Below, piece by piece: positions 15,643 to 34,131 of a stretch of 34,474 nucleotides of DNA (within the stretch, counting starts at the first letter, position 1; every line of letters starts with the position of its first letter). Made by a program: the position numbers and the translations under genes. This stretch comes from Chloroflexota bacterium (GTDB lineage Bacteria > Chloroflexota > UBA11872). The notes beneath the pieces are model-generated. The model had not been told where the DNA came from and did no database searches. It saw only the letters and a list, made by a program, of their open reading frames with translations. The stretch spans positions 364 to 34,837 of the forward strand of contig JAPPKM010000046.1 of NCBI GenBank assembly GCA_028874315.1, given 5' to 3'.

Positions 15643-16926
15643 GTGGCACGCACACCGTCCGAACCCGGACCTTCGGTCAGCCTGCAGCGGCCGTCAATCG
15701 TCATTCTGCTGGGCATTTTGCTGGTGGCCGCCATGGTCACGACGTCACCCATCGCGTACTGGCTGCTCTACGCGCTTGGCGGACTGGTAATCCTGTCGTA
15801 TTTGTGGACGCGAAACGCGGCCCGCTCGCTGCAATTGCGCCGGCGCCTCCGAGGGCATCAGATCACCGTCGGCGACCAGGTGCAAGAGGATTTTGAGCTT
15901 GTTAACACCAGCCGCCTGCCAATCCTGCTGGTGGAAGTGGACGATCACTCGGAATTGCCCGGCTACCAAGCGTCGGTTGCAGAAAGCCTGGGACCGCGGC
16001 AGCGCAAGCGTTGGATTTCACGCGGCCTCGCCGGACGTCGCGGGCTCTACGGCCTCGGACCGACGGATCTGCGAGTCGGCGACCCATTTGGGATCTTCGC
16101 CTCGGAGCGGCGAATCGACGTTCGGAACACGATCGTGGTCTATCCACCTATATCGATCATGGCCGATGTGGAGATCCCCGCCGGGTCGATGGTGGGTACG
16201 TCACGTTCGTCAATACGAACGCACCAGGTCACCTCCGACGCCGGAGGAATCCGGGAGTTTCAGCCTGGCGACCCGCTAAAGCGAATTCACTGGCTCTCCA
16301 GCGCACGTCGCTCGCAGCTGCTGGTCAAGGAGTTTGACTTGGAGCCCACGGCCAACCTATGGATCGCCCTGGATCTGGATCGGAACGTTCAAGCCGGCCA
16401 CGGCGATGAGTCCACCGAGGAGTACGGAGTAAAGATCGTATCGTCGCTGGCCCATCAGTTCGTGCGCGACAACAAGGCGGTGGGGTTCGTTGCACTCAGC
16501 CGTCAGGGGCGTCACCTGATCGAGCCCCAAAAGGGGCTCAAGCAGTTGTGGCGCATTTTGGAGACGCTGGCGGTGGTGCAGGCGAGCGGCACGGCACCAT
16601 TTCACGAGTTTTTGTCCGCCAGCGCGGCAGGACTGGGACGCGGCACGAGCCTGGTAGCCATCACGCCCTCCGCCGATCCGAGATGGGTCACCAGCCTCAC
16701 CCAGCTTGGCCACCGCGCAATTTATCCGCTGGCCGTCGCGATCGACGCCTCCACGTTCGGGCCGGGGGATTCAAACGCTGGTCTCAGCCAGGTAGCCGGT
16801 GCCGCGGGCATTGGCTTCGTGAGCGTTGATCAAGGGATGCGTTTCGAGATGATTCGCGCCGATGGGCGCAACCTCGCTGAGTTTGAACGCAGTCAGCGGC
16901 GACCCGTCACGCTGGCGCCGGCATGA
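15643..16926 (+). CDS. DUF58 domain-containing membrane protein
   Basis: Two N-terminal TM segments; GGIREFQPGDPLKRIHWLSSARRSQLLVKEFDLEPT is the DUF58 signature. Confidence 0.9.
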   Translation: MARTPSEPGPSVSLQRPSIVILLGILLVAAMVTTSPIAYWLLYALGGLVILSYLWTRNAARSLQLRRRLRGHQITVGDQVQEDFELVNTSRLPILLVEVDDHSELPGYQASVAESLGPRQRKRWISRGLAGRRGLYGLGPTDLRVGDPFGIFASERRIDVRNTIVVYPPISIMADVEIPAGSMVGTSRSSIRTHQVTSDAGGIREFQPGDPLKRIHWLSSARRSQLLVKEFDLEPTANLWIALDLDRNVQAGHGDESTEEYGVKIVSSLAHQFVRDNKAVGFVALSRQGRHLIEPQKGLKQLWRILETLAVVQASGTAPFHEFLSASAAGLGRGTSLVAITPSADPRWVTSLTQLGHRAIYPLAVAIDASTFGPGDSNAGLSQVAGAAGIGFVSVDQGMRFEMIRADGRNLAEFERSQRRPVTLAPA

Positions 16927-19343
16927 CCGCAGCCGTTGCCAGCCGCCCACGTCCGCTGGCGCGTGCTTTGCAGCTCCCGCGCACCGCATGGCTGCCGCTA
17001 ACCCTGGTTGGGACGGCCACGCTGGCGCCAATTGTCAGCATTCACGCCGTTGGTTGGGCCCCCGGTACCGAGGTCCTGCTGTCGGTAGCCCTGGTGGCCA
17101 TCCTTGTCGGATTCGCGCTGTCGCGCAGCCGTCTGGCCTCGCGCTGGATTCTTCTCATCGGACTGGTCAGCGACTTGGCCGTGGCCTACGTGGTGGCTTC
17201 CGAGGCCTTTCCGGGTCCTCTCGACGCCGTGCGCAACTTTGTGCTCCTGTTTGGGGAGACCGTGGAGTGGGTCCAGCTTCGTCAGGCTGGGAATCTGGTA
17301 CGCGAACAGCCACTGGCAACAGCCGTGGCCGAGAGCGCCGGACTGTTTCAGGATCTGTTTTTCCGGCTCGAATCGTGGTTCCAGGCCGCGTTCGCATTCC
17401 AGGTCAGTCGCGACAACGTGGTCTTTCTCTTTTGGATGACGATGGCTGCCTGGGGCATGGGTTTCACGGCAGCGTGGGCGGCCTTCCGGCTACGCAATGC
17501 GTATTTGGCGGTCGCGCCCGGCACGCTGGCGATTGCGGTCAACATCACGTACATCGGCCCCGACTGGCCACCGTTCGCGATTTTCCTGATTGCCGCTCTC
17601 GCGCTGACCGTGCACACGCGGTTGGCGTCGCTGGAAGCCCGATGGGAGGACACGCGAACGGACTATTCGGAAGAGCTTGGACCGACCGTCCTCATAGCGA
17701 GTGCTCTGCTGATTACCGGTGTGGTATTTCTGGCGTTGGTCCTGCCAAGGGCTGGCGGGAACCCGCTGGCCGAGGCTTTTTGGACGTACATGGGCGACGG
17801 GTGGGGCAATGTGGAAGCCGGCATTCAGCGCGTGTTCGGAGGAGTCACGAATCCTTCCGGCTCAACCCTGGCCGGACGCGAAACGATGGCGCTGACGGGA
17901 CCGGAACCGTTTGCGCGCAAGGAGACGCTCATCATCGAGAGCACCGTCCCGTCGTACTGGAGAGGACAGACGTTTGATACCTACACGGGTCAGGGCTGGC
18001 GCAGCACGATGCGGCTGCTCGAAGGGCGCAGGGCCAACGAACCACTAACGGATAGCCTGAATCTCAAGTCGCGACTCGCGTCCCGCTCGAATATTGAGAT
18101 CCTGGATTCGAACTCCGCGGTGCTGTTTGCGCCGGGCGACGCCCTGCGGCTCAATCGCCCGTATCAGATACAGGTCGTTGAACGTGATGTGGCAATCGAC
18201 GACTACGCGTCGATCCGCGCCACACGTCGCGTGGGACAACGGCTCGTCTACTCGGTGGACTCGACGTTGGCCGCAGCTACCACCCAGCAGTTGCGCACCG
18301 CCCCGACCACCTATCCCGCGTGGACCGAGCGCTACATCGAGCTTCCTCAACTCCCACCACGTGTTCTGGAGTTCGCCGCGCGCCTGGCCGAAACCGGTGA
18401 CTCGGCCATCGATAGGGCGCGTGCCGCGGAGTTTTTCATGCGTCGCTTTCCGTTCGCGCAGGACACGGAGCCACTGCCCGCGGATCGCGACGCGACCGAC
18501 TACTTTTTGTTTGATCTTCGCCGTGGTCACTCGACACTCATCGCGTCCACCATGGCCGTGTTAGTCAGAGCCATGGGGATTCCGGCGCGCGTGGCCGCAG
18601 GCTACGCCCAGGGCGTCTTTGATCCTGTCACCCAGCGACACATTGTTAACCCCACCGACGCGCACACATGGGTGGAGGTGTATTTCCCGACATACGGCTG
18701 GGTGCTCTTCGAACCTTCAGGTTTCCGAGCACCGGAGGTGCGCGGCGGGGCCGCGGACGGCGCGGAAGGGGATAGTGCAATTAACCCGGACGCCGCGGAC
18801 CTTTCGATGGTTGACGAGTTTCTCGATGAACTGGATGAGTTGGATTCTGCGAACTTCCAGCCGCTGGAGCCGGCTGACGACCTGAATCCCGTTCGGAACT
18901 TTCTGTCAAACCTGGGTGGTGCGATTCTCGCCCTGATCGTTATTGGAGCAACGCTGGTAGTGCTGGCCGCACTCTTCTTGCTCGGCTCGATCGTCCGCGA
19001 CCTGTTGCAAAGTCCGCGCGCAGCGGTCAGTCGGCGCTATGAGCGAATGGTCAAGTGGGCCAATCGTGCTGGGTACAATGCGCCCCACGGGTTTACGCCT
19101 GCGGAGTTCGGCCGCCAACTGGCTGCCGAGCTGTTCCCGACACCGGCCTCGGTCCCCCCAACGCATCTCCCGACTCCGCCCGAGGTTGTTACGGAAACAT
19201 ATGTTCGAGCTACCTACGGACGGCGGCAAATCTCACGGTCGGAGCGACGAATGGTTGACAAGGCCTGGCGACGCATACGCGTCCGTCTTGCCGTTCGCAT
19301 GATTGGTCGGCCCTTGCGTCGGCTGGCACCGACCCGAGCCTGA
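16923..19343 (+). CDS. TgpA-like transglutaminase-domain membrane protein (catalytic Cys position appears to be Ser)
   Basis: Multiple N-terminal TM helices, extracellular domain with GHSTLIASTMAVLVRAMGIPARVAAGYAQG and DAHTWVEVYFPTYGWVLFEPSG, C-terminal TM plus DUF4129-like tail. ATGA overlap with DUF58 gene. Confidence 0.9.
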   Translation: MTAAVASRPRPLARALQLPRTAWLPLTLVGTATLAPIVSIHAVGWAPGTEVLLSVALVAILVGFALSRSRLASRWILLIGLVSDLAVAYVVASEAFPGPLDAVRNFVLLFGETVEWVQLRQAGNLVREQPLATAVAESAGLFQDLFFRLESWFQAAFAFQVSRDNVVFLFWMTMAAWGMGFTAAWAAFRLRNAYLAVAPGTLAIAVNITYIGPDWPPFAIFLIAALALTVHTRLASLEARWEDTRTDYSEELGPTVLIASALLITGVVFLALVLPRAGGNPLAEAFWTYMGDGWGNVEAGIQRVFGGVTNPSGSTLAGRETMALTGPEPFARKETLIIESTVPSYWRGQTFDTYTGQGWRSTMRLLEGRRANEPLTDSLNLKSRLASRSNIEILDSNSAVLFAPGDALRLNRPYQIQVVERDVAIDDYASIRATRRVGQRLVYSVDSTLAAATTQQLRTAPTTYPAWTERYIELPQLPPRVLEFAARLAETGDSAIDRARAAEFFMRRFPFAQDTEPLPADRDATDYFLFDLRRGHSTLIASTMAVLVRAMGIPARVAAGYAQGVFDPVTQRHIVNPTDAHTWVEVYFPTYGWVLFEPSGFRAPEVRGGAADGAEGDSAINPDAADLSMVDEFLDELDELDSANFQPLEPADDLNPVRNFLSNLGGAILALIVIGATLVVLAALFLLGSIVRDLLQSPRAAVSRRYERMVKWANRAGYNAPHGFTPAEFGRQLAAELFPTPASVPPTHLPTPPEVVTETYVRATYGRRQISRSERRMVDKAWRRIRVRLAVRMIGRPLRRLAPTRA

Positions 19344-22300: not shown

Positions 22301-23125
22301 ATGAAATTCGTTCGTTACGCCACCGAATCCGGGACAGCCCTTGGCTCTCTGAAGGAGTCGGGCGCCGTTTACGCCGTCAGCGGCGACATGTTCGGCGAGT
22401 ACGAGGTCGGGGCGCAGGTCGGCACCGTTGACGACCTGGAGCTGCTAGCGCCGGTGGATCCCGGCAACGTGATCGCCGTCGGGGCCAACTACCTGGCGCA
22501 CATCCTGGAAGGCCACGACGAGGACGCCATTCCGAAGTTCCCGATGCTGTTCATGAAGCCCAACTCGGCCATCACCGGACCCGGAGCGCCAATCGTGCTG
22601 CCGGACCCGGCGAAGTTCACCCAGTCGATGAATGACCCGGACTTGCAGAAGGATCCGTTCGGCGAGGTGCACTACGAGGCCGAACTGGTGGCGGTGATCG
22701 GGAAGACCTGCCGAAACGTCTCGGAGGACGAGGCGCTGGACTACGTGCTGGGCTATAGCTGCGGCAACGACGTCAGCGCGCGCGGCCTGCAGGTCAAGGA
22801 GATGGCCACCGGTGTCCTGCTGATGAGCAAGGGGATGGACACGTTTGCGCCGCTCGGCCCGTGCATCGCCACCGATCTCGACCCATCCAACCTCGAGATC
22901 ATGGCCCGGCTCAACGGCGAAGTGAAGCAGCACAGCAACACCAACGACCTGCTGTTCAACGTGGCGGCCCTTGTTGCCTACACCTCGCAGGGTGTGACCC
23001 TCAATCCCGGCGACTGCATCTACACGGGTACGTGCGCCGGGCCGTCAGCACTCTCGCCAGGCGATGTGATTGAGATTGAGGTCGAAGGCGTGGGCGTGCT
23101 GAGCAACCCGGTGGTGGCCGCCTAG
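22301..23125 (+). CDS. Fumarylacetoacetate hydrolase (FAH) family protein
   Basis: VIAVGANYLAHILE, PMLFMKPNSAITGPGAPIVLP, EVHYEAELVAVIGKTCRNVSEDEALDYVLGYSCGNDVSAR. Confidence 0.92.
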   Translation: MKFVRYATESGTALGSLKESGAVYAVSGDMFGEYEVGAQVGTVDDLELLAPVDPGNVIAVGANYLAHILEGHDEDAIPKFPMLFMKPNSAITGPGAPIVLPDPAKFTQSMNDPDLQKDPFGEVHYEAELVAVIGKTCRNVSEDEALDYVLGYSCGNDVSARGLQVKEMATGVLLMSKGMDTFAPLGPCIATDLDPSNLEIMARLNGEVKQHSNTNDLLFNVAALVAYTSQGVTLNPGDCIYTGTCAGPSALSPGDVIEIEVEGVGVLSNPVVAA

Positions 23126-23146
23126 CGGGCCATCGGTGCTAGCGGC

Positions 23147-24412
23147 ATGATCCGCAGATTCGACCTGCCATACGGCGAAGAGACGCTTGCCGTCGGCACG
23201 GCCAGCGTTGACGTGACTGGGGTCTACACGCCCCGACCGACGCCGCCGGCGCGCAACCCCCGGGGGCTGATTCGAGAGGCGCTGGACAACCCGATCGGGT
23301 CCGAAACGCTACGCGAAGCGGCGCGGGGGAAGGCGAGCGCTCTCGTGCTGATCGACGATATTACGCGGGAGACGCCAGCGGACTTGCTACTGCCGCCGAT
23401 CCTGGACGACCTGAAGTCGGCGGGGATCGCGGCGGACGACATCCTGGTAATGATCGCTCTGGGCACGCACCGGCCAATGACGGACGCCGAGGTCCGGCGC
23501 AAGGTCGGTGACGAGGTGCTGGGGCGGGTGCGGGTGACGCAACACGATCACCGTACGGCGCCCCTGCGCGACCTGGGCGTGACGCCGAGCGGGACGCCGA
23601 TCGAGGTCAACGAGCACCTGTTCGAGGCCGACATCGTGATTGGGACCGGCGCGGTGGTGCCGCACCACATTGCGGGGTTCTCGGCGGGCGCCAAGATCGT
23701 GCAGCCGGGAGTATCGGGGGCCGCCACCACGGCCGCCACGCACATGTTCAGCGCCAAGGCACGGACGCCGTTGCTGGGTCAAGTCGACACGCCGGTACGC
23801 GCCGAGATGGAGCTGATTGCCGAGCGTTGCGGTATGCAGCACGTATTGAACGTGACGCTCAATGCCGACGGGCGGATCGTGACGGCTCGCTTTGGCGCCA
23901 CGCGGCCTACGTATCGACGGGCCGTCGAAGACGCCCGGCGCATTTACGGCGTTCGCGCACCCGCCGGGCTGGACGCGGTGGTGGCGGGATCGCATCCGTG
24001 CGACATCGAGTTCTGGCAGGCCCACAAGAGCCTGTATCCCGCGATGCTGATGGTGCGGCCGGGCGGGACCATCATCGTGGTGACGCCGTGCCCGGAAGGC
24101 GTGGCCGTGACGCATCCCGACATGCTGGACTACACGGCGCAGCCGGCGGACGAGTTGTTGCGACGCTACGAGCGCAACGAGATCGACGACCGCGTGGCCG
24201 CATCGCTGGCCGTGGCCTGGGCCAGGGTCCGGGAATACGCGCGCGTGGTGCTGGTATCGGACGGCATCGCGCCACACGAGGCAGAGGCGCTTGGGTTCGA
24301 TACGGCGCCGGATGTGGAGACCGCGCTTTCGGCCCTGGCACGGACAAGCGGCACCGCACCGCAGGTTGGGGTCTTGACGCACGCACCGGACACGCTGCCG
24401 CTGGTGGCCTGA
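23147..24412 (+). CDS. Nickel-dependent lactate racemase family (LarA homolog)
   Basis: ALVLIDDITRETPADLLLPPILDDL, IALGTHRPMTDAEVRRKVG, VVPHHIAGFSAGAKIVQPGVSGAATTAATH (LarA N-terminal domain and cofactor-Lys region). Confidence 0.9.
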   Translation: MIRRFDLPYGEETLAVGTASVDVTGVYTPRPTPPARNPRGLIREALDNPIGSETLREAARGKASALVLIDDITRETPADLLLPPILDDLKSAGIAADDILVMIALGTHRPMTDAEVRRKVGDEVLGRVRVTQHDHRTAPLRDLGVTPSGTPIEVNEHLFEADIVIGTGAVVPHHIAGFSAGAKIVQPGVSGAATTAATHMFSAKARTPLLGQVDTPVRAEMELIAERCGMQHVLNVTLNADGRIVTARFGATRPTYRRAVEDARRIYGVRAPAGLDAVVAGSHPCDIEFWQAHKSLYPAMLMVRPGGTIIVVTPCPEGVAVTHPDMLDYTAQPADELLRRYERNEIDDRVAASLAVAWARVREYARVVLVSDGIAPHEAEALGFDTAPDVETALSALARTSGTAPQVGVLTHAPDTLPLVA

Positions 24413-24415
24413 GGT

Positions 24416-25645
24416 ATGGACCGTTGGGCCGTCATCGCCGACGACCTGACGGGGGCGCTGGATACCGCGCTGCAATTTCGGAAGGCCGGCCTGCAGACCA
24501 TGGTTTCGACTCGTGCCCGCGTCTGGCCATCGCACGGATCGGTGGTTGCCTTGAGCACCGAATCCAGACACGTTTCGGCCGCCAATGCCGCCGCGAGTGT
24601 GAAGGCCGCGTTTCACGCGCTGCCATGCGGAACGTCGGCGCGGATTTACAAGAAGACCGACTCGCTGCTGCGCGGGAACATTGGGGCCGAGTTGCGAGCG
24701 CTGTTCGAGGCCACCGGCTCGGGCCCGCTGGTGTTTGCGCCTGCCTATCCGACCGGCGGCCGGACGACGGTGGATGGGATTCATCGGCTGGAGGGTGTGC
24801 CTGTCGCCGACGCCACGCCGGGGCGAGACCCGGTAACTCCGATTCGGGAATCGCACATTCCGACCCTCTTGAGGAACAGCGCTGGGCTGAAGACGGAGCA
24901 TGTGCCGCTCGACGTCGTCCGGGGAGATCCAGACGGCTTGGTCGACGTGCTTACGAGGGCACAGGGGACCGGCGTTGATGTCGTGGTGCCGGACGTGGAG
25001 ACGGACGGCGACCTGCGGGCCATCGCGTGGGCCCTGCGCTCGTCCGCTGCCGGGCGCATCAGCGCGGGATCGGCCGGGCTTGCCGAGTATTTGGCGCAAC
25101 CCGATCAGAGCCCACTCCGACCTGTGGGCCTGGAGCGATCGGCATTCGTGGCAGCCGTGGTAGGCACACCCAGCGCCCATACCAAGGTGCAGGTCGAGCG
25201 CGCGCTCAGCAGGGGCTTTGCACGGCGCATGCGAATTCGAAGTGGAGCGGACATCGAAGCCGCCGTTCGAGAGACGCGCCTGTATAGGTCGAATGACCGG
25301 TTGACGGTTTTCGATACGACGATTGAGGGAACGGCGCCGCGACCCAAGGAACGCCGACGCCACCTAGGGTACGTGGTCGAGCTTTGCAGAGCCATCGCGG
25401 ACGCCGCGGATCAGCCGGGCTTGATTCTCACGGGTGGGGATACCGCACGCGCCGCGTTGGATGCGCTGGAGGTGGACGCCATCGAGGTCCTGGGGGAGAT
25501 CGAGTGGGGCGTGCCCGGCGGGCATGCGCTGCGCGGTACACGCCGGGTGGCGTCTGTCGTGACCAAGGGCGGGACCATGGGAGGTCCGGACGCGCTGACG
25601 ACCGCCTTCAGGCGCCTATGCTCCACGGTGAGCCAGGCAGCATGA
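24416..25645 (+). CDS. Four-carbon acid sugar kinase family protein (DUF1537)
   Basis: WAVIADDLTGALDTALQFRKAGLQTMV, RIYKKTDSLLRGNIGAELRALFE, LVFAPAYPTGGRTTVDG, LILTGGDTARAAL, VTKGGTMGGPDAL. Confidence 0.92.
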   Translation: MDRWAVIADDLTGALDTALQFRKAGLQTMVSTRARVWPSHGSVVALSTESRHVSAANAAASVKAAFHALPCGTSARIYKKTDSLLRGNIGAELRALFEATGSGPLVFAPAYPTGGRTTVDGIHRLEGVPVADATPGRDPVTPIRESHIPTLLRNSAGLKTEHVPLDVVRGDPDGLVDVLTRAQGTGVDVVVPDVETDGDLRAIAWALRSSAAGRISAGSAGLAEYLAQPDQSPLRPVGLERSAFVAAVVGTPSAHTKVQVERALSRGFARRMRIRSGADIEAAVRETRLYRSNDRLTVFDTTIEGTAPRPKERRRHLGYVVELCRAIADAADQPGLILTGGDTARAALDALEVDAIEVLGEIEWGVPGGHALRGTRRVASVVTKGGTMGGPDALTTAFRRLCSTVSQAA

Positions 25646-31665: not shown

Positions 31666-34131
31666 TCAGTCCACGCGGGTGATCCAGAAGCGCAGGGCGC
31701 GGTCGTCCCCAACCGTGGCCAGCAGCGCGCCGTCGGGGCTGTACGCGACCGCTCGAATCCAGTCGATGTGGGCATCAATAGCGCGTCCCAGCTTCAGGCT
31801 GCCGGTGGGGTCGCGCAGGAGGGCGCGCTGATATACGCCGATGGCTAGTTCGTCGCCGACCGGCCGGTAGGCCAGCGACGTGATGAGCCCCGCCTCCGGC
31901 TCGATCTCTCGCAGCAGGCTGTTGGATCCACTCGCGAGAATCTTGATCGCCGCGCCGTCCGCCAGCGCCATCTCGGCGACCCGCGGGGCGAAGCGGATGG
32001 CCCGGATCCAGTCATCGAGCCCTGTCAGTCGCAACCGCTCAGCACCGGTTGCCGCATCCAGGAGCAAGACTTCGCGATACGTGCCGACTGCCGCAAGGCC
32101 CGATCCATCCGTTGCCAGCGCCGTGATGGGGCCGGACGCCATCACGGCCCAGTTCTCGGCACCGTTGCTCGGATCCAGCCTGCGGACGACGCCTCGGGCG
32201 TCGCCTGCCAGTAAGTGACCGTCCGCCGCAAAGGTCAAGGCTGTCACGCTATCCGGCACGGCTGGCGCTTCGCTCAGCAGCGCTCCGTGCGCGGCATCCC
32301 ACAGTCGCACCCGGCCGTCGTCTCCGCCGGAGGCCACGATCTGTCCGTCAGGCGAATAGGCCGCAACTCGCGCCGGTCGGTCATGTGCTGCGACGGATGC
32401 CCGGATCGCACCATCGGTTCCGACGATCACGAGCCAGCCGTTATCCAAGGCGGCCGCCACCGACGTACCGAGAGGACTGTAGTCCACGGCATTGCCCGAC
32501 GCGGGCAGGGCGGTTTCGGCGGCTAGTTCCGAGAGCGCCGTCAGCCACACGCCAACGTCTCCGTCCCAACTCCCCGAAAGCAGGATTTCGCCATCCGGGC
32601 TGAAGCTGAGCCCCTGAACGTCAGTCGTGTGGCCGGTGAGGCTGTATAGCCTGGTTGCCGTGGCAACGTCCCACACCCCCACCGTTCCGTCGCTTGAGGA
32701 CGTGGCCACTCGACGCCCGTTCGGGCTGAACGCCACCTGCCACACCGAGTCGCTATGTCCGGCAAGCGTGGCCAGCGCTGATCCGTTCGTTGCGTCCCAC
32801 AGCACAGCTGTGTTGTCGTCGGCGCCAGTAGCTAGGCGCGTGCCGTCGGGACTGATGGCGAGGGACAGCACAGCCCGTGAGTGCTGCTCGATGAACTCGA
32901 GCAGGCGTTCTCCTGTTGCCATGTCCCAGATATCCGCCCTGGCCCAACCGGAGGTAATCAGACCTCCGCCGTCTGGTGTAAAGGCGACGCCATTTGACCA
33001 GGCGTCAATGTCGTCGAACTTGGCGAGATGCTCACCGGTCGCCACATCCCACACATGGGCCGCGGCGTAGGTCGTCGCAGCCACAAGGGTTCCGTCTGGA
33101 CTAAAGGCCACGCTTGTGAACCAACGCTCGTCAGCCTGGAGCACATGGACTTGCTCGCCCGAGCGCGTATCCCAGAGCCGCACGGTGTCATCCTCGGAAG
33201 CGCTGGCGAGGAGCGAGCCATCAGGCGAATAGGCGACTTCGTAGATGCCGTCAAAGTGGCCCAGGAGTTCATGGATCGGCGTCAAGGTCGCCCGATCCCA
33301 GATCACGACGCGGCGGTCGTAGCCGCCGGTAGCGAACGTGGCGCCCGATGGGTCGAAGGCCACGCTGGTCACCAACGGACTGTGGGCTTCCACCAGCGGT
33401 CGAGGAATGCGGGGCGGCGCCAATGGCACCGTGCTTGGCGCCGGAATCATCCCAGCTTGCTTGAAGTGATCACCGGCCGGTGCCAGGCGAACCTGTCCGT
33501 CACTGAGGCGAAGGACGGCTCGCTGGGCCCTGAGGACGCCGCCGTCCGGTGCCGACGCATATCCAAGTGGCAATCCGAATCTGGTCAAGGCATTCGGAGA
33601 GGCTCTCCAGAAGTCCGTGACTTCCGAAGCAGCGGACAGCACTTCCAGGCGAGCCAGTGGGCCGGTGTCTGCGGGCAACAACGTGCTGGGTGGTATGCCT
33701 TTGAAGTCGAGCAGCCACGGATCGTGTCCTGCCGACGACAGCACGTCGTAGATGTTGGCTGGGCGAACTTCGCCATCGGGACCCACCTGAAGCACGGCCC
33801 GTTGAAAGGCCTGGTAGACGAACGGCGCTGCATGCCAGGGCTGCGAAATCGGATAGCCCAGAAGCTCGTGACCCCCAAGGCCCTGAAAGGACGTCCAGAT
33901 TGGAGCGCCGGGCGCGTCCACGACCGAATAACCAAGGCCTCCCCCGCCGCCAGTCTGCGTGTAGAAGAAGCCGTGCTGGAGCGGAAAGCTGGCTGGGCTC
34001 GCCGCAGCGCCGGTCGCTGAAAGGGCGACGAGCACAGCTACCCCGAAGCTCGCGACGGCAACTCGCCACTTGCGGACCGCGACCGAGACACGAGCCGCCG
34101 GCCGCACGCTCAAGAATCGACGGACGATCAC
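31666..34131 (-). CDS. Secreted WD40-repeat protein with about 14 repeats and an N-terminal GYP/LGFP-like region
   Basis: N-terminal signal peptide; LGYPISQPW...YQAFQRAVLQ segments; repeated VAFSPDGxxLAxxxxDxxVxxWD units. Confidence 0.92.
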   Translation of the reverse strand: MIVRRFLSVRPAARVSVAVRKWRVAVASFGVAVLVALSATGAAASPASFPLQHGFFYTQTGGGGGLGYSVVDAPGAPIWTSFQGLGGHELLGYPISQPWHAAPFVYQAFQRAVLQVGPDGEVRPANIYDVLSSAGHDPWLLDFKGIPPSTLLPADTGPLARLEVLSAASEVTDFWRASPNALTRFGLPLGYASAPDGGVLRAQRAVLRLSDGQVRLAPAGDHFKQAGMIPAPSTVPLAPPRIPRPLVEAHSPLVTSVAFDPSGATFATGGYDRRVVIWDRATLTPIHELLGHFDGIYEVAYSPDGSLLASASEDDTVRLWDTRSGEQVHVLQADERWFTSVAFSPDGTLVAATTYAAAHVWDVATGEHLAKFDDIDAWSNGVAFTPDGGGLITSGWARADIWDMATGERLLEFIEQHSRAVLSLAISPDGTRLATGADDNTAVLWDATNGSALATLAGHSDSVWQVAFSPNGRRVATSSSDGTVGVWDVATATRLYSLTGHTTDVQGLSFSPDGEILLSGSWDGDVGVWLTALSELAAETALPASGNAVDYSPLGTSVAAALDNGWLVIVGTDGAIRASVAAHDRPARVAAYSPDGQIVASGGDDGRVRLWDAAHGALLSEAPAVPDSVTALTFAADGHLLAGDARGVVRRLDPSNGAENWAVMASGPITALATDGSGLAAVGTYREVLLLDAATGAERLRLTGLDDWIRAIRFAPRVAEMALADGAAIKILASGSNSLLREIEPEAGLITSLAYRPVGDELAIGVYQRALLRDPTGSLKLGRAIDAHIDWIRAVAYSPDGALLATVGDDRALRFWITRVD

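Follow-up and report, generated by a model that had tools for sequence, protein, structure and literature searches.

The TgpA-like gene and its surroundings

The window, as the whole analysed stretch of 34,474 nucleotides from a Chloroflexota bacterium is called here, carries a gene whose product has the domain order of TgpA, namely TgpA_N (1.1e-10), Transglut_core (8.6e-18) and DUF4129 (8.6e-7), each above its Pfam cut-off (Table 1). PF11992 lies N-terminal to PF01841, a feature of the TgpA family, with both above the curated cut-offs; the peptide RRGHSTLIASTMAVLVRAMGIPARVAAGY is in frame in this orf. NCBIfam gave no family for this protein and none for the DUF58 protein. Hydropathy analysis indicates candidate membrane segments at about AA 22-96, 217-280 and 659-697, and the transglutaminase domain is therefore predicted to lie between membrane segments, as in TgpA. 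It is the one Transglut_core match in the window's own assembly.

Table 1. Features at the TgpA-like locus, in window coordinates; f1 and f2 are the two families of the order
Feature	Position	Strand	Evidence and remarks
DUF58 protein, 427 AA	15643..16926	+	PF01882 1.9e-16; overlaps TgpA start codon
TgpA-like protein without Cys, probable pseudo-transglutaminase, 806 AA	16923..19343	+	Pfam domains; zero Cys
Transglutaminase core, AA 484-598	18372..18716	+	PF01841; core helix and strands in AF2 model; closest PDB fold TgpA 6g4h/6g49
Ser537 codon TCG, catalytic Cys position	18531..18533	+	Alignment to 6g49; first core-helix residue in AF2 model
His581 (CAC), equivalent of catalytic His, retained	18663..18665	+	Invariant in 23/23 order rows and 6/6 f4
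Glu597 (GAA), acidic-residue equivalent, retained	18711..18713	+	Invariant in order, f4 and all Cys-bearing rows
Small membrane-anchored ORF, 94 AA	19347..19631	+	3 bases past tgpA stop; same-genus matches, DNA-level support only; no family above cut-off
Small YtxH-like ORF, 78 AA	19644..19880	+	PF12732 0.0019, weak, below cut-off; conserved in f1
Small membrane ORF, 104 AA	19880..20194	+	Conserved in f1 and part of f2; no family

A phmmer search against solved structures found a single entry, the TgpA domain 6g49 (E 7e-20), in an alignment that pairs ...FDLRRGHSTLIAS... of the window protein with ...FDTRSGFCAHYAG... and DAHTW with DAHAW, placing His on His and Ser537 on the catalytic Cys. An AF2 model built from 17 sequences (mean pLDDT 55, pTM 0.61; weak overall, confident in the core) has a core helix at residues 213-226 that starts at residue 213, which is Ser537, with residue 257 (His581) within a strand and residue 273 (Glu597) directly after one; the PDB folds that match it best are TgpA 6g4h and 6g49, with protein 4.2 (7uzs) as a weak match. 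The core helix thus begins with Ser, or with Ala in relatives, in place of the catalytic Cys. A Cys elsewhere in the protein acting as nucleophile, which the earlier note had named as one finding that would overturn its reading, is ruled out, as the entire protein has no Cys.

The DUF58 and tgpA genes overlap by 4 bases (ATGA, 16923-16926), and a DUF58 gene lies directly upstream of tgpA in all 40 TgpA-bearing genomes sampled from the class, which bears out the DUF58-TgpA operon context proposed earlier. A MoxR-type (AAA_3) gene at the TgpA locus was not found among the matches listed for the 41 genomes of the sample, Cys-bearing ones included; its absence is not unique to the Cys-less form and is treated as variable context, not as a defining feature. 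One member of the same order (G021, 1.9 Mb, 93% complete) is without TgpA, DUF58 and a strong MoxR match, and this joint loss, a single case, fits a shared function. Elsewhere in the window are a gene for an 821 AA protein consisting mostly of WD40 repeats (31666-34131, minus strand) and a row of genes (22301-25645, plus strand) resembling those for fumarylacetoacetate hydrolase, a nickel-dependent LarA-type racemase and D-threonate kinase; these last matches fall below the NCBIfam equivalog cut-offs, and a sugar-acid pathway is possible.

Residues at the nucleophile position in the class and phylum

TgpA-like proteins were obtained from 40 of the 41 genomes in the class sample, the 41st having no TgpA. 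The order of the window genome is made up of families f1 (19 genomes, two genera) and f2 (4 genomes), while f4 (6 genomes) and f3 together with f5 (11 genomes) are other families of the class. All 23 TgpA-bearing genomes of the order have Ser or Ala at the site, Ala being the residue in 16; f4 has Ala in all 6, and f3 and f5 have Cys in all 11, in the motif GYCDYFA, giving 29 Ser/Ala and 11 Cys among the 40. The earlier note had read Ser at the catalytic Cys position, which both the structural alignment and this clade-wide check uphold; what is conserved in the order is the lack of Cys, with Ser or Ala instead, rather than Ser as such.

A decaying gene or an assembly artefact can be given almost no weight as an explanation. 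The assemblies are drafts, and the window genome itself is about 87% complete, but the orfs are intact in all 13 genomes of its genus, the codons at the site there are TCG, TCC, TCA or TCT for Ser and GCC for Ala, omega is about 0.05 and the loss extends over the order. The occurrence of four Ser codons and one Ala codon in independently assembled relatives refutes a base-call error, and the base call on which the earlier note depended is genuine.

The proteins of the order are nested, with support of 100, among the TgpA-like proteins of the class, Cys-bearing ones included. The class tree requires 2 changes between Cys and non-Cys as against 5 among Cys, Ser and Ala, and Ser and Ala therefore interchange within the order. 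Holding the order and f4 together relative to the Cys-bearing families lowers the log-likelihood by only 1.07 (AU p 0.42), so a single Cys loss common to both is not rejected, and there may have been one or two losses in the class. Two TgpA-like frames (L014 and L045, UBA6622) are 948 AA, longer than those of their relatives; the similarity to the window protein is interrupted near AA 680, which suggests an insert ahead of the C-terminal part.

It is specifically the TgpA-like protein that has lost its Cys, since small transglutaminases of about 310 AA in the same class keep their Cys (GVCQD) in 10 of 10 examined. That such a second, Cys-bearing enzyme compensates for the loss in the same cells is highly improbable. 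A GVCQDYAH protein of this size is indeed present in many relatives, but it does not have the length of TgpA and is found in Cys-bearing genomes too, and a second transglutaminase match is absent from G003, G008, G011 and G022 as well as from the window's own genome (a weak point at about 87% completeness). No Cys-bearing TgpA that could act as a backup was found in the class genomes, each TgpA-bearing one having a single TgpA of about 800 AA.

A wider set of 99 Chloroflexota TgpA-like proteins was picked by match strength and family spread; as it is non-random, its residue counts (Cys 61, Ala 22, Ser 12 and Phe 4; outside the class, Cys 50, Ser 5 and Phe 4) are not frequencies. At least 5 changes between Cys and non-Cys are needed on the phylum tree, from which the catalytic columns were excluded, and Cys has been lost at least 3 further times in this sample beyond the class. 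Five proteins from other families of the phylum (L078, L082, L109, L110 and L119) have GYS[DE]Y, with Ser for Cys and with His and Glu kept, and lie at three separate places in the tree. Four more (L080, L086, L087 and L092) have Phe for Cys, Phe or Tyr for His and Asn or Ser for the acidic residue. With the entire triad gone, their inactivation is independent and goes deeper; in their sister rows Ser stands for Cys and the site is otherwise intact. On plasmids of other phyla, Cys is kept in 12 of 13 readable matches, one of the 12 being a smaller protein of a different type. An Embleya plasmid (L138, about 401-646) encodes a TgpA-like protein without Cys and His (GTSEQFA ... DALVWPE), an apparent actinomycete pseudoenzyme.

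Constraint on the remaining active site

The median pairwise omega of the Cys-less core is 0.051 in the window's own genus, 0.023 in g2 and 0.021 in f4, as compared with 0.115 and 0.176 for two Cys-bearing sets from f3 and 0.044 for the lone f5 pair; several dS values are near 1, close to saturation, and the absolute omega values are rough. The positions that are at least 80% conserved in the Cys-bearing relatives were compared with the rows of the order. His581, Trp583, Glu585, Trp593, Phe596 and Glu597 show no variation in the order, the first of these, Trp583 and Glu597 showing none across all 29 Cys-less proteins, and Arg549, Pro554, Arg556 and Gly560 are conserved as in the Cys-bearing proteins. 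The His and acidic motifs that the earlier note described as remaining are thus retained without exception. The clear changes near the site are at 537 itself and at the nearby positions 536 and 539, at which most rows have another residue instead of Tyr, along with Tyr511, which is Phe in the order. What has been lost is specifically the nucleophile together with the residues right around it, and the domain is not decaying as a whole. All Chloroflexota forms that retain His, with or without Cys, have Glu as the acidic residue; because the Cys-bearing forms carry it too, the inactivation does not include the exchange of Asp for Glu.

The earlier note had left the choice between a pseudoenzyme and a Ser-based variant; the former is supported and the latter is not. 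That Ser537 serves as nucleophile, in a serine-type transglutaminase or hydrolase with the same His-acid pair, is very improbable, even though the core helix begins with Ser, His and Glu are kept, and Ser stands for Cys at three further places in the phylum tree. Papain-like families with a conserved Ser exist, and Cys-to-Ser mutants of two papain-like enzymes are partly active (PMC10318531); menin, DUF2272 and others resemble the present protein in having Ser for Cys beside the remaining active-site residues, but in those families Ser is conserved, whereas in this order it alternates with Ala. Six same-genus relatives with Ala are 85-87% identical to the window protein over its length, a nucleophilic role is impossible for Ala, and the Ala-only groups show no weaker selection on the core, measured as omega; the equivalents of Tyr536 and Tyr539 have also been lost. 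Ser catalysis is unlikely because Ala serves equally well, and a Ser-based enzyme is rejected by the interchange of the two residues within the order.

Chemistry that does without Cys, with His581 and Glu597 activating water or a metal ion in a different kind of hydrolase, would account for the invariance of His581, Trp583 and Glu597 in the 29 Cys-less proteins, and the four-protein Phe-bearing lineage lost its Cys along with His and the acidic residue, from which it follows that the fold does not require these two. Such chemistry is still unlikely, though less so than a Ser nucleophile: no precedent for it in the transglutaminase-like clan was found in the literature searched, and the aromatic and polar residues beside the Cys position have drifted, unlike those of a rebuilt active site.

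Known systems and a probable role in the envelope

PA2875 of Pseudomonas aeruginosa is a MoxR gene. The TgpA operon of that organism starts at PA2875, and TgpA (PA2873) possesses the complete Cys-His-acid triad; transglutaminase activity has been measured for its isolated domain, and it is reported to be essential (PMC3507681). The window protein is like this TgpA (6g49/6g4h) in its domain order, with TgpA_N and an extracytoplasmic transglutaminase domain, in its upstream DUF58 gene and in its closest solved fold and sequence; it differs in being without any Cys and in having no MoxR gene at its locus. Among eukaryotic proteins, budding yeast Cyk3 has a transglutaminase-like domain without the catalytic Cys, whose His and Asp are required in vivo (PMC4758748). 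Here too the Cys is missing while His and an acidic residue are conserved, but Cyk3 is cytoplasmic, contains an SH3 domain and has chitin synthase as its known partner; the likeness is one of analogy, not of membership. Erythrocyte protein 4.2 (EPB42), Rad4 and FBXO21 are inactive transglutaminase-fold proteins (PMC10318531) that likewise put the fold to non-catalytic use, though they belong to distant families, occur in another context and have neither TgpA_N nor DUF58. The open-access literature searched contained no description of a bacterial TgpA clade without Cys, and it is this clade that is new here; inactive transglutaminase folds in eukaryotes and Ser-for-Cys exchanges in papain-like proteins were already known.

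Throughout the order, Ser or Ala has taken the place of the ancestral catalytic Cys, the remaining domain and the DUF58 pairing have been kept, and the core is under strong purifying selection. With the gene intact and strongly conserved after the loss of Cys, its product probably works without transglutaminase chemistry, and we infer that it serves in the envelope by binding or scaffolding, without catalysis. The best explanation, held with considerable confidence, is that a TgpA-family pseudo-transglutaminase has been retained. The protein would be held in the membrane beside DUF58 with its transglutaminase fold outside, and the fold would bind or regulate a partner in the envelope; the conserved cleft of His, Trp and Glu may serve to contact a ligand or to stabilise the fold, and not for acyl transfer. 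The mode of action can be likened to the control of chitin synthase by Cys-less Cyk3 in yeast, a working analogy because that domain still needs its His and Asp.

A broader reading, which we offer only tentatively and consider doubtful, is that the conserved function of the widespread DUF58-TgpA pair may need no transglutaminase chemistry, the fold alone working in an envelope complex. If this is true, the Cys-less lineages would be natural catalytic knockouts, with Cys loss recurring several times in Chloroflexota. Given whole DUF58-TgpA lineages still under strong selection after loss of the nucleophile, whether activity is the essential function of TgpA becomes testable, and the automatic annotation of such proteins as "transglutaminase" is wrong for a sizeable share of one phylum.
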